Source of the DNA: Bacteroidota bacterium
GTDB lineage: Bacteria > Bacteroidota > Bacteroidia > Palsa-965
Length of the DNA: 64,000 nt
Assembly: GCA_016194975.1 (NCBI GenBank)
Contig: JACQAM010000008.1
Coordinates: 248,001-312,000, forward strand
Reading direction: 5' to 3'
Part shown: positions 33,039 through 63,389 of the stretch, one piece after another
How the letters are laid out: each line of letters starts with the position of its first letter
Position numbering within the stretch: position 1 is the stretch's first letter
Notes under the pieces: generated by a model
What the model was told of the DNA's origin: nothing
The model's input: only the letters and a program-made list of their open reading frames with translations
Database searches by the model: none
Translations under genes and position numbers: made by a program

Positions 33039-33152
33039 TGTGAAAAGGGAAGTGAAAGTACGAAGAGAATGGAGAATGAAGGGCGGAGAAGGGAGAGAAG
33101 TTTTGCGCGAATAGTAACACGATTTTCACAATGGGAATTCTTCAAATCGGTT

Positions 33153-33359
33153 AGAGGCTGTTTAAAATTCATTTTTTGGAATTGTTATGATGCCATTTTT
33201 GTTCAGCCGAGGCGCATTTTGCAGGCCATAGTGGAGCGACTACAGCCAAGAAATGCAACCCCGCCTGCTAAAGGAAAATGGGTCGTGCGTGGGCGGGCAG
33301 GGAAGGATGGACAAAAATGGCGCATAACAAAACAGAAGGATGAAATTTAAACAGCCTCT
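33153..33359. mobile_element. Fold-back (MITE-like) element, copy 1, with nested insertion
   Basis: Ends AGAGGCTGTTTAAA ... TTTAAACAGCCTCT are perfect inverted repeats. The interior matches the reverse complement of the copy at 58798-58964 almost base for base, except for a 40-odd-base CCCGCC-type palindrome inserted at about 33259 and a decayed right arm (lost TTCCAAAAAATG). It has no coding capacity. It lies in the spacer between divergent dnaG and a T9SS gene. Confidence 0.85.
33259..33297. repeat. CCCGCC-type palindrome nested in fold-back element
   Basis: Arms CCCCGCC and GGGCGGG enclose 25 bases. It is absent from the second copy of the fold-back element, where AAATGCAAC joins GAAGGATG directly, so this is an insertion after the element itself. 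Confidence 0.7.
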
Positions 33360-33537
33360 TAGCCCGGGAAAATCTGTGCCAATATTTCCGCCTTCCTCAT
33401 CCACATCAAGATTAAAAAACTACACTGGACCTGTTTAATCATTAATAAATCTGTTTCATTTTTCCCATGCCACGCGTCTCCCATCCCGCGTCTATTTCAT
33501 TATATTTGAATTCATCCCCGCTTGTAATCCCATTGAC

Positions 33538-41098: not shown

Positions 41099-41848
41099 AT
41101 GAGATTCGCTGTTGTCCATATTTTTTCTGTTCTCCTGATCGCGGGAAATATTTCCGCGCAAACTGTTATTAAAACGAATGCAGATACGACTCAACCTGTG
41201 AAGAAGGAGATTCATGTGAACGTGATGAATCCGAATGGAAAACAGACGGTGGAATACAAAGGAAAGGTGATGCACACTGACAGCGTTGCGAATGCGATGA
41301 AAATAAACCTGTTCAATCTTTCGCGCGGCGATTATGAAATTTATTGCGAGCATCGTTTCTCCGATGCTTTCAGTGCAGAAGCGGGAATAGGAGCTACTTA
41401 TATCGATTACATTTATGAACTTTCGAGCAACGGTGGAAAATATATCAGTGTGATCAACGGCAACCTGCACAATGCAAAATTCTATTCTGGTTTTGCGGGC
41501 GGACTTCAATTGCGTTATTATCCTTCGAGATATGAAACGGCGATCACCGGTTATTATCTGGCGGCCGGCGTTACGCAGCGTAATTACAAAATGGATTATT
41601 ACGTTTTCACCGGATTGATCTCAGAACCGCATCGCGTAGAAAGAAACTGGACGGATTTCAAAATTCAATTCGGCTACCAGGATGCTGATCCTTACGAACG
41701 TTTTTTCTGGGAATGGTATGTTTCTGCCGGAGTGCGCCACGCGGTGGAAGATAAAATAGAAGGAGACGGACTTGACGCAATCTATGATCACTATGATACG
41801 ATGAAGCTGGTGATCGGCGGAGGAGTGAAGATCGGTTTCAACCTGTAG
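41099..41848 (+). CDS. Secreted barrel-like protein
   Basis: 249 aa. Signal peptide MRFAVVHIFSVLLIAGNISA. A linker of about 45 residues (TTQPVKKEIHVNVMNPNGKQ) is followed by a compact domain with alternating strands (MKINLFNLSRGDYEIYCEHR, AEAGIGATYIDYIYEL, GYYLAAGVTQRNYKMDYYVF) ending VIGGGVKIGFNL. This resembles the small outer-membrane barrels (DUF3575-like) of Bacteroidota. Its stop is immediately followed by the TACGAAATAC repeat region. Confidence 0.68.
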   Translation: MRFAVVHIFSVLLIAGNISAQTVIKTNADTTQPVKKEIHVNVMNPNGKQTVEYKGKVMHTDSVANAMKINLFNLSRGDYEIYCEHRFSDAFSAEAGIGATYIDYIYELSSNGGKYISVINGNLHNAKFYSGFAGGLQLRYYPSRYETAITGYYLAAGVTQRNYKMDYYVFTGLISEPHRVERNWTDFKIQFGYQDADPYERFFWEWYVSAGVRHAVEDKIEGDGLDAIYDHYDTMKLVIGGGVKIGFNL

Positions 41849-42004
41849 TAAGAAATACGAAAATTCTACTAAAAGTTACGTAATACAGATGAATACGAAA
41901 TCTGTGTTCCCCAATAGACTTTTTCCCAAACGTGTTCGGGATTTCGTATTTCGTACTACCGCCGCATTACGTAACTTTTAGTTGTGTTTGGTATTTCGTA
42001 CTAC
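41845..42004. repeat. Long imperfect hairpin of TACGAAATAC/CTAAAAGTTACG words
   Basis: CTAAAAGTTACGTAAT (41869-41884) is perfectly complementary to ATTACGTAACTTTTAG (41967-41982), and the outer GTAGTAAGAAATAC pairs with GGTATTTCGTACTAC near 41990. The right arm lies within the 3' end of rlmN and encodes its last residues. The left arm recurs at 45619-45672. Confidence 0.8.
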
Positions 42005-43045
42005 TGCGGTATTTTTATTCGCCAGTTGTCCGCAGGCTGCATCAATGTCTTTTCCTCTTGAGCGGCGCACATTCACGATCACATTTTTTTCCTCGAGAAT
42101 ATTTTTGAAAATGGCCAATCGTTCCGGAAGTGTTTGCCGGAATTCTCCGTCGTCGATCGGGTTGTATTCGATGATGTTCACTTTAGCCGGAACTTTTTTA
42201 CAAAAGGCAGCGAGCTCTCTTGCATCTTCAGGAGAATCATTGAAGTCTTTGAACACAATGAATTCAAAAGTGACGCGCGTTCCTGTTTTGTCGTAAAAAT
42301 AATTCAGTGATTCACCCAGCGCCTCAAGTGAATTCTGTTCGTTGATGGGCATGATGTAATTTCTCTTCAGATCATTTGCCGCGTGAAGAGAAAGTGCAAG
42401 ATTGAATTTCACTTCATCATCGCCGAGTTTCTTTATCATCTTCGCAATTCCCGCTGTGGAAACCGTAATGCGCTGCGGCGACATTCCCAATCCTTCCGGC
42501 GAACAGATCTTCTCCACCGATTCAAGCACGGGAGAATAATTGAGTAATGGTTCTCCCATTCCCATGTAAACAATATTCGTCAGCGGCTGATCATATTTCT
42601 CCAGCGACTGGTTGCGTATCAGCACAACCTGGTCAACCATTTCTTCGGCATCAAGATTGCGCACGCGCGTGAGGCGTCCGGTTGCACAGAACCTGCATGT
42701 GAGCGAGCATCCCACCTGCGAGGAGATGCACGCGGTCATGCGCGAACTGGTGGGAATCAAAACGCCTTCCACAATATTCCCATCGTGCAAACGGAATGCA
42801 TTTTTGATCGTGCGGTCTTTGCTCACCTGGAAATTATCGATCTGCACAATGGGGAAAGAAAAATTTTCTGCGAGCATCAATCGCGTTTCCTTCGGGAGAT
42901 TTGTCATCTCATCAAAATTTCTCGCCGATCGTTGCCACAGCCATTCCCAAACCTGTTTCGCACGAAAAGATTTTTCTCCTTTTTCAGCAAAAAAAGTTCT
43001 CAGTTCTTCCAGGGGAAGTTGCCTTATATTTTTCTGAGCCGACAT
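41978..43045 (-). CDS. rlmN: 23S rRNA A2503 / tRNA A37 C2-methyltransferase
   Basis: 355 aa. Radical SAM motif CSLTCRFCATG, the MGMGEPLLNY motif, the SLHAANDLKRN segment, and the C-terminal catalytic cysteine in RRSRGKDIDAACGQL. The enzyme methylates A2503 of 23S rRNA and A37 of some tRNAs, using two SAM molecules. The N-terminal accessory domain (LRTFFAEKGEKSFRAKQVWEWLW) is intact. The final residues (AVVRNTKHN) come from an intergenic-type repeat that runs over the end of the gene. Confidence 0.96.
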   Translation of the reverse strand: MSAQKNIRQLPLEELRTFFAEKGEKSFRAKQVWEWLWQRSARNFDEMTNLPKETRLMLAENFSFPIVQIDNFQVSKDRTIKNAFRLHDGNIVEGVLIPTSSRMTACISSQVGCSLTCRFCATGRLTRVRNLDAEEMVDQVVLIRNQSLEKYDQPLTNIVYMGMGEPLLNYSPVLESVEKICSPEGLGMSPQRITVSTAGIAKMIKKLGDDEVKFNLALSLHAANDLKRNYIMPINEQNSLEALGESLNYFYDKTGTRVTFEFIVFKDFNDSPEDARELAAFCKKVPAKVNIIEYNPIDDGEFRQTLPERLAIFKNILEEKNVIVNVRRSRGKDIDAACGQLANKNTAVVRNTKHN

Positions 43046-45618: not shown

Positions 45619-45714
45619 GTAGGAAATACGAAGATTCTACTAAAAGTTACGAAATACTAAAGAGTACGAAATCGGTCAGCGTAATACTTTTGTAAATATT
45701 CGTATTTCGTACTC
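45619..45714. repeat. Second copy of the TACGAAATAC/CTAAAAGTTACG repeat
   Basis: The left ~55 bases match 41847-41901 (GAAATACGAAGATTCTACTA, then AAAGTTACG) with a few changes. The right end (CGTATTTCGTACTC) touches the queA stop codon. Confidence 0.8.
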
Positions 45715-48399: not shown

Positions 48400-48520
48400 C
48401 ACGGAAACTATTAATGGTGACCACCCGGCGTAATACCCGGTTTATGGAGTTGGCAGGGACCGCAGCCCGTGCTCCATACTTTACACCCGCATGACGTCCT
48501 CCGTTATGTGGGTTTTTTTT
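48400..48520 (+). ncRNA. Candidate structured RNA ending in a terminator
   Basis: Several pairings can be drawn: ATGGA...TCCAT around GC/GC and GGG/CCC (about 48456-48477) and CCGG...CCGG before it, leading into a terminator stem. No known family (SRP, 6S, tmRNA) fits. It could equally be the 3' untranslated region of the upstream gene. Confidence 0.25.
48486..48520 (+). terminator. Rho-independent terminator
   Basis: Stem CCCGCATGACG / CGTTATGTGGG pairs over 11 bp with two G-U pairs, loop TCCTC, followed by eight T. It ends the DUF2306/Lys-rich operon. Confidence 0.85.
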
Positions 48521-48615
48521 ACTGTACGAACTACGAAATGCACGAAGTACGAAGTGACGAATAGAAAAATTACTTTCGTATTTCGTACTTCGTGCATTTC
48601 GTAGTTCGTACAGTA
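48520..48615. repeat. 34-bp-arm palindrome between convergent genes
   Basis: The left arm starts TACTGTACGAACTACGAAAT and the right arm ends ATTTCGTAGTTCGTACAGTA. The outer 34 bp are perfectly complementary, with further partial pairing and a loop near 48560-48572. It lies between a terminator and the gpmI stop codon (48618). It is built from the same TACGAA word as the repeats at 41845 and 45619. Confidence 0.9.
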
Positions 48616-58797: not shown

Positions 58798-58964
58798 TAG
58801 AGGCTGTCTAAAATTCATTTTTTGGAATTGTTATGCGCCATTTTTGTTCATCCTTCGTTGCATTTCTTGGCCGTAGTCGCTCCACTATGGCCTGCAAAAT
58901 GCGCCTCGGCTGAACAAAAATGGCATCATAACAATTCCAAAAAATGAATTTTAGACAGCCTCTA
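58798..58964. mobile_element. Fold-back (MITE-like) element, copy 2, intact
   Basis: The outer 38 bp (TAGAGGCTGTCTAAAATTCA and on) are exactly complementary at the two ends. Pairing continues through CCATTTTTGTTCA and GCATTT..GGCC, so the whole element folds on itself. It has no open frame. Its reverse complement matches the element at 33153-33359, which differs by a nested insertion and a damaged arm. Both lie in spacers. Confidence 0.9.
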
Positions 58965-62015: not shown

Positions 62016-63389
62016 TTAGCGTGAATCCGCGACAACTTCCATCTTCATTCCTCTCGAACCCTTGATCAGTATCAAACTATTCTGAGGATTCTCTTTCTTC
62101 AACCACTCGCCGGCGGCAACAGAATCATTCACACGTATTCCTCTGAAATCATCTTTCGTCGCCGCAAAGTGTTTTCCAACAAATACAACTTTTACGTCCT
62201 GAGCTTGTCGAAGGATCAACTTTTCTCCAATAAGATCCACTATGCGCTGATGTTCTTTCGCACTTTCTTCGCCGAGTTCAAACATATCTCCAAGCAACAG
62301 AATTTTATGCTCCGCTTTCATCTTTGCAAGATTAGTGATCGCCGCTTCCATGCTCGACGGATTCGCATTGTAATAATCAAGGATGAATGTATTCGTCCCC
62401 CGTTTTTCCATTTGCGATCGATTTATATCCGGAATATAATCCGCGATCGCATCATCAATTTCATTCGCAGGAATTCCAAAATAATTTCCCACAGCACAAG
62501 CCGCCAGCAAATTCGGAAGATTGTATTCGCCGGTGAGATGAGTGGCCACTTCGTGCGAAGAAATTTCTTTTGTCTTCCAAATGAATTTCACGAACGGATC
62601 GCTGCTAATAATTTTTCCATTTACTGAAGCATTTTCAGAAACTCCATACGTGACTACTTTCAATCCTTGCGCGCGTTTCACAATTTGTTCATCATCTGAA
62701 AAAACAAAAGCAACACCCTGCCCGACTTTGTCATTCAGGCGGGCATTTCTCTTTCTGAGATCATCAAACAATTCTGTTTTCCCTTTCAGTACGCCTTCCG
62801 CTCCGCCGAATCCTTCGAGATGGGCAAGCCCGATGTTGGTGATCAATCCGAAATCAGGTTCGGCGATCGAACTCAGTAACTCAATTTCTCCCAAATGATT
62901 CGCGCCCATTTCAATCACAGCAAACTGGTGTTCTTTTTTCAATTGCAATAAAGTGAGTGGAACTCCGATGTGATTATTCAGATTTCCATTGGTGAAGTGT
63001 GTGCGAAATTTTTTCGCGAGAACGCGCGCTATCAATTCTTTCGTGGTGGTCTTTCCATTGCTGCCGGTGAGTGCAAGTACTTTCAGCTTATTTTTTCCCA
63101 ACTCCCGGCGGTGATGATTCGCCAATTGCTGGAGCGAACGGAGAACATCATCAACCAGGATCGTCTTTTCATTTTTGAGAAAAGTTTTGTTATCGATCAC
63201 GGCGAACGCAGCACCTTTTTTCAGCGCATCATCTGCAAATTTATTTCCGTCAAAATTCCCACCCTTCAAAGCAAAGAAGATACAACCCGGAATAATACTC
63301 CTCGTGTCTGTCGAAACGAAAGGATGCTGAAGAAATATTCTATAAATATTTTCTGTTATCACAACGTCTTTAAAAGAAGAACGCTCCAA
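62016..63389 (-). CDS. murF: UDP-MurNAc-tripeptide D-alanyl-D-alanine ligase
   Basis: 457 aa, a little longer than usual for the phylum. Mur-ligase motifs: SRSIIPGCIFFALKG-like start, P-loop ALTGSNGKTTTKELIARV, EMGANHLGEIELLSSI, TNIGLAHLEGFGGAEGVLKG, and YNANPSSMEAAITNLAK. It adds D-Ala-D-Ala to the peptidoglycan precursor. Two segments look inserted in frame by small repeats: NARLNDKVGQG (near residues 214-225) and ILRQAQD (near 391-398). It follows gldJ by 39 bp in the same operon. Confidence 0.96.
   Translation of the reverse strand: MERSSFKDVVITENIYRIFLQHPFVSTDTRSIIPGCIFFALKGGNFDGNKFADDALKKGAAFAVIDNKTFLKNEKTILVDDVLRSLQQLANHHRRELGKNKLKVLALTGSNGKTTTKELIARVLAKKFRTHFTNGNLNNHIGVPLTLLQLKKEHQFAVIEMGANHLGEIELLSSIAEPDFGLITNIGLAHLEGFGGAEGVLKGKTELFDDLRKRNARLNDKVGQGVAFVFSDDEQIVKRAQGLKVVTYGVSENASVNGKIISSDPFVKFIWKTKEISSHEVATHLTGEYNLPNLLAACAVGNYFGIPANEIDDAIADYIPDINRSQMEKRGTNTFILDYYNANPSSMEAAITNLAKMKAEHKILLLGDMFELGEESAKEHQRIVDLIGEKLILRQAQDVKVVFVGKHFAATKDDFRGIRVNDSVAAGEWLKKENPQNSLILIKGSRGMKMEVVADSR
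62196..62215. repeat. CCTGAGCTTGTCGAAGG dispersed element inside murF
   Basis: The minus strand reads CCTTCGACAAGCTCAGGAC and encodes LRQAQD. From memory this short sequence recurs in the intergenic and coding DNA of many bacterial genomes. It lies at a junction where MurF homologues usually have no extra residues. Confidence 0.65.
62719..62745. repeat. GC-rich mini-palindrome in frame inside murF
   Basis: Arms TGCCCGACT and AGGCGGGCA (8 of 9 complementary) around nine bases. It encodes ARLNDKVG and keeps the frame. Same CCCGCC type as in the helicase gene. Confidence 0.7.

Follow-up and report, generated by a model that had tools for sequence, protein, structure and literature searches.

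The fold-back element and its copies

The window analysed here is a stretch of 64,000 nucleotides, positions 248001–312000 of contig C8, in a Bacteroidota genome of 4.10 Mb and 28 contigs (termed the own genome). Positions 33153–33359 of the window are occupied by a 207-bp MITE-like fold-back (inverted repeat) with TTA flanks. The element itself, GAGGCTGTTT...AAACAGCCTC, is on the forward strand at 33154–33358, and extends over 33151–33361 together with its TTA direct repeats (33151–33153 and 33359–33361). Its terminal inverted repeats consist of a left arm at 33153–33189 and a right arm at 33323–33359, each of 37 nt, and these are 81% complementary. The element is non-coding, and open reading frames across it are incidental. 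A second copy is present on the reverse strand at 58799–58963 (locus L027), with 38-nt arms that are 100% complementary. The copy, at 58798–58964, is a symmetrised variant, its perfect 38-nt arms comparing with 81% in the copy at 33153.

The element is multicopy. A BLAST search of the own genome gave 87 matches, of which 40 distinct loci were read (L009–L047 and the window copy). Thirteen of these display both ends, four are cut by a contig end, and 23 are without one end inside the contig, the remainder of the sequence being nearly identical. Four loci (L023, L024, L025 and L030) end at one common base, CAAAACAG|, with unrelated flanks.

Complete copies typically start with GAG(G/C)CTGTTTAAA or with GAAGCTGTTTAAA. 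When 40 complete copies from the own genome and from relatives were compared, 33 showed equal 3-bp flanks (18 TTA, 13 TAA, one TGA and one GTA) and seven showed unequal flanks. As judged from its arms, its flanks and its 40 own-genome loci, the 207-bp unit is a predicted non-autonomous MITE-like transposon. It was probably mobilised in trans by an inferred DDE transposase that would make 3-bp duplications, mostly TTA or TAA. An anatomy with TNA duplications is IS1031-like, i.e. of the IS5/IS1031 type.

The nested 42-bp segment

The two window copies differ by exactly 42 bp, present at 33260–33301 (forward strand) and missing from the second copy, whose empty site lies between 58856 and 58857. 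The original prediction of an inserted palindrome of about 40 bp is thereby made precise, and the junction is exact: AAATGCAAC|GAAGGATG. The placement of the insert cannot slide, because it is preceded by C and followed by G, neither of which equals the base at the opposite end of the insert. The site in the MITE reads AAC|GA, and no target duplication accompanies the insert.

The segment begins with CCCGCCTG (33260–33267) and ends with CGGGCAGG (33294–33301); both are conserved ends of a dispersed family described below. The segment had been predicted to be a CCCGCC-type palindrome. This holds for its ends, which match those of the family, but the 42-mer makes a weak hairpin, and its folding as DNA does not surpass that of shuffled sequences (z = −0.43, with 61 of 200 shuffles equal or better). 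The term palindrome therefore applies here to short imperfect terminal inverted repeats with a largely unpaired middle. That middle is unlike the middles of other family members, the likeness being confined to the ends.

Presence and absence of the segment

The site can be assessed in 27 of the 40 own-genome loci; the other 13 do not contain it. Nine of the 27 carry the 42-bp segment and 18 do not. Eight carriers have the full 42 bp in identical form, and in the ninth the contig stops after 33 bases, all identical. From three related genomes (G005, G006 and G007) 40 copies were fetched, 38 of which span the site, two with a 1-nt alignment gap there, while two do not span it. None of the 38 has the segment. 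The original prediction had allowed that most copies might hold the segment, in which case its absence would be the derived state; a minority of own copies and no copy in the three relatives do so. The segment is therefore a derived insertion, and its absence is the ancestral state. Reading further copies, as had been proposed, yielded exact ends and no target duplication.

The alleles at columns 59 and 115 of the MITE are shared by copies with and without the insert, and non-carriers show them in all combinations. This mixing points to recombination or conversion among MITE copies. No MITE allele is diagnostic of carriers, so that a single insertion requires recombination among copies. The nine carriers are not nine transpositions of the palindrome, because all of them share an identical insert that travels with the MITE. 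They probably go back to a single insertion that spread with the MITE and was reshuffled as its copies recombined. The lack of any variation in the insert is compatible with a recent origin, yet the difference from the MITE body is not significant (p = 0.21).

A dispersed family with the same ends

The exact end pair CCCGCCTGC...CGGGCAGGG is found at 15 places in the own genome, eight in the MITE and seven elsewhere, and a reversed-pattern control at none. The same exact pair was found in none of 11 relatives searched. Among the own-genome loci read there are 12 distinct elements outside the MITE with the ends CCCGCCTG...CGGGCAGG, with lengths of 27 bp (n = 3), 40 bp (n = 2), 49 bp (n = 1), 51 bp (n = 4) and 78 bp (n = 2). 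It should be noted that these 12 elements and the 42-mer were gathered by their ends.

Frequencies were compared in 439 kb of the own genome, consisting of 21 stretches, some of them picked for holding carriers or members. Nine exact end pairs were present there and none for each of three control pairs. With up to two mismatches allowed, the family gave 25 pairs and the controls 28 (reversed), 2 and 12. The tolerant count is not above that of the reversed control, and thus only exact pairs are informative. One exact end pair, of 30 bp, was found in 400 kb of G007, which shows that the family ends are not unique to the own genome. Over-represented 9-mers in the 439 kb revealed no abundant REP family. 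The signal of the family came only from inverted 6-mer pairs, where CCCGCC..GGCGGG was seen seven times versus 0.58 expected, some of the stretches having been chosen for carriers.

By eye, the 27-bp form corresponds to the 51-bp form with 24 inner bp left out, and the 78-bp form carries an additional 27 bp in the middle of the 51-bp form; middles differ across the family. The right flank starts with GA in 9 of the 12 non-MITE elements and the left flank ends with ACG in 7. Nine of the 12 lengths, like that of the 42-mer, are multiples of three, and the three exceptions (40, 40 and 49 bp) are outside recognised genes. A literature search yielded no paper describing this family at the level of titles and opening abstracts, with partial coverage of subscription papers.

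A related but separate end type was seen in the own genome at L074, L076, L079, L081, L082 and L086. These palindromes end in GGGCGGGCAGGCA, look intergenic, and several have a TGCC-rich left arm.

Family members inside genes

Four of the 12 non-MITE members are in open frames, i.e. those of hisD, nadB, murF and an M20-like peptidase gene. The murF gene is in the window (62016–63389, reverse strand; its product matches MurF structures) and carries a 27-bp member at 62717–62743 (reverse strand). This adds nine residues in frame, which are absent from MurF in 7 of 7 relatives. Compared with the seven relatives, this MurF has a second small insertion as well, of about five residues (LRQAQ).

HisD (L197) has 17 extra residues that are absent in all six genomes with a match; one of the seven genomes searched gave none. 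NadB (L198) has 17 residues that are missing from E. coli NadB (1chu). In the M20-like peptidase (L196) a 51-bp member is present in the open frame, and the PDB alignment ends at the edge of the insert. A related variant, CCCGCCCG...CGGGCGGG, is found in an SDR gene (L100), where nine residues are missing from 3sc4, and a related insert is in the open frame of a LytS-like gene (L099). A SMUBP-2-like helicase gene in the window also contains a palindrome, and the alignment gave no clear gap there. The in-gene insertions seen keep the frame, being 27 or 51 bp and adding 9 or 17 residues.

The original prediction held that the CCCGCC palindromes are or were mobile. The ends of the 42-mer match a dispersed family, and hisD, murF and nadB offer empty sites in orthologous genes; thus CCCGCC elements have moved, also outside MITEs. 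Insertions of 9–17 residues in proteins of this lineage can accordingly be selfish DNA and not adaptation.

Comparison with known repeats

Rickettsia palindromic elements (RPEs) and their Wolbachia counterparts are described as palindrome-ended sequences of 105–146 bp or about 150 bp that are found in frame in conserved genes as well as intergenically, are absent in orthologues, and move by a process left unexplained there (PMC2229807; PMC10969869). As compared with those descriptions only, the present family is similar in being in frame in conserved genes and absent in orthologues (hisD 6/6, murF 7/7, nadB versus 1chu). It differs in that its elements are 27–78 bp, the 42-mer has no long stem-loop (it folds like shuffles), the host is of a different phylum, and one of its members is carried inside a MITE.

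CGTC-tagged REPs are described as small palindromic repeats, some intragenic, with Bacteroidetes among the phyla and without a dedicated transposase (PMC3733652). The present family is likewise intragenic in part, and none of the three Y1_Tnp loci of the own genome is flanked by the repeat. Unlike the REPs as described there, it does not have the unpaired CGTC (or TGTC/CCTC) end tag, its ends being CCCGCCTG/CGGGCAGG, nor is their regular 8–9 bp stem with a 4–5 nt loop present at its ends. CGTC or TGTC appears only inside the 27-, 51- and 78-bp forms. The ends of the 42-mer and of the in-frame members were set independently by empty sites.

GTAG REPs with their RAYT (Y1) genes are also short imperfect palindromes, and a RAYT-like gene is present in the own genome; the present family, however, has no GTAG tag, and the repeats next to the RAYT-like gene are of another kind. 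The MITE resembles bacterial TNA MITEs (IS5/IS1031-type) in its terminal inverted repeats, 3-bp TTA/TAA duplications, body of about 165 bp, multiple copies and lack of a gene. It is unlike them in that no autonomous parent was detected in the searches of two to four genomes described below and over half of the own-genome loci are without one end. Small dispersed repeats of cyanobacteria are reportedly very small, and their mobility is said to have been argued from insertions within other repeats. They differ from the present family in sequence and host.

The closest known kinds are thus RPEs and tagged REPs. The family is a variant of the palindromic-repeat kind and a member of neither.

Candidates for a mobilising enzyme

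No mobilising enzyme could be linked to the MITE or to the small element among the candidates examined. A profile search with PF13586 in four genomes gave a single 43-aa fragment below threshold and yielded no IS5-type DDE_Tnp_1_2 parent for the MITE. A search for the terminal inverted repeats in two genomes showed no inward pair of IS size among the matches listed. RAYT/IS200 as direct mover was rejected, since the three Y1_Tnp loci of the own genome are without flanking CCCGCC repeats: a different repeat adjoins its one RAYT-like gene, and its two IS200-like genes are flanked by hairpins of their own. The RAYT-like locus L155 (own genome, G000:C16) has its own repeat, TGTCGGGTGTTATCACGCGTGA, upstream, and the RAYT-like locus L144 (G005:C77) has its own repeat, CCGCAGGATTTGCAATCCTGCGG, on both sides.

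The claim that the empty site is evidence of mobility stands as to movement. It is refined in that nine carriers do not represent nine transpositions and that the search for an enzyme gave none.

Proposed history and alternatives

It is likely that a MITE received a 42-bp mobile palindrome-ended element, that the MITE then spread, that recombination moved the insert, and that small elements inserted elsewhere too. In the proposed process, one MITE copy would have been entered by another mobile sequence of far smaller size, the 42-bp CCCGCCTG...CGGGCAGG. The insertion would have been clean, directly 5′ of GA and without target duplication. The carrying MITE would have multiplied afterwards, and the insert may have passed between MITE haplotypes when copies recombined or underwent gene conversion. 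Small elements would also have inserted elsewhere in the genome, moved by a trans-acting activity that may recognise single strands or hairpins. The lack of a duplication, the strand-asymmetric imperfect ends and the preference for the GA side would be in keeping with a process based on hairpins or single strands.

Different histories can be drawn from the same copies. If the 42-bp segment were ancestral to the MITE, shorter copies would have lost it by deletion, and repeated losses might leave carriers without a diagnostic MITE allele, as is seen. The same exact deletion would then be needed in 18 non-carriers without a flanking repeat as a guide, the ends of the segment are also those of a distinct dispersed family, and 38 spanning copies in three related genomes are all without the segment. 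This history is exceedingly improbable and is rejected on the outgroup copies. The multiple MITE haplotypes of the carriers could also reflect several independent insertions of the palindrome at one MITE site, a site-specific hotspot, and the family does have a site preference. The same 42-bp middle in all carriers, which is not found elsewhere beside a CCCGCCTGC end, makes this very unlikely, and because MITE alleles recombine among non-carriers too, recombination suffices.

A one-off local event, i.e. template switching or illegitimate repair, might have produced the 42 bp, the CCCGCC-like ends being a coincidence or a convergence on GC-rich hairpin ends. The weak hairpin and the middle unlike that of other members agree with this. 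In addition, 12 nt of the 42-mer are also present in a MITE subfamily of G006 just to the right of the homologous site; this match was reached by 2 of 1000 shuffles, and being post hoc it is a weak hint. The one-off event is nevertheless unlikely, given that both 8-bp ends match exactly and coincide with the borders of the insertion, just as they do in the in-frame members, and that controls gave no exact end pairs.

The history of a mobile 42-bp element carried by a spreading MITE may be extended to a broader reading, which is possible although doubtful. The family would represent modular micro-elements of Bacteroidota, with fixed 8-bp ends (CCCGCCTG/CGGGCAGG), middles that are exchanged or nested (the 27-, 51- and 78-bp forms differing by 24 and then 27 bp), and duplication-free insertion 5′ of GA. 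They would enlarge conserved proteins in frame and be able to ride on an unrelated MITE. The imperfect end hairpin would be recognised by whatever drives them, either a trans-acting enzyme or a process at the replication fork.

Movement of very short palindromic repeats is hard to prove because a single genome usually offers no empty site. The MITE provides a large set of aligned sites, some empty and some filled, together with a polarity from outgroups and exact ends. With the same ends in frame in hisD, nadB and murF, the entry of tiny palindromes into genes, and the enzyme, can be tested in this lineage.

Other small palindromes

MITEs of the relatives contain further inserts that are absent from the other copies read. 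In G007, the MITE at L138 has a 34-bp CCTGCC...GGCAGG insert at CAGGCGA|GGCATG, and that at L137 has a 22-bp insert, TTCCGAAGG...CCTTCGGGA. Two MITEs of G005 (L105 and L113) have a TTCCGAGGCTTCGGAA hairpin. Several palindromes are thus nested in relatives' MITEs, and these MITEs therefore act as recording sites for small palindromes.

AT-rich inverted repeats of the TACGAA..TTCGTA type are present in the window at 41845–42013, 45619–45712 and 48520–48615. In the 439 kb this pair was seen 19 times as against 2.6 expected.
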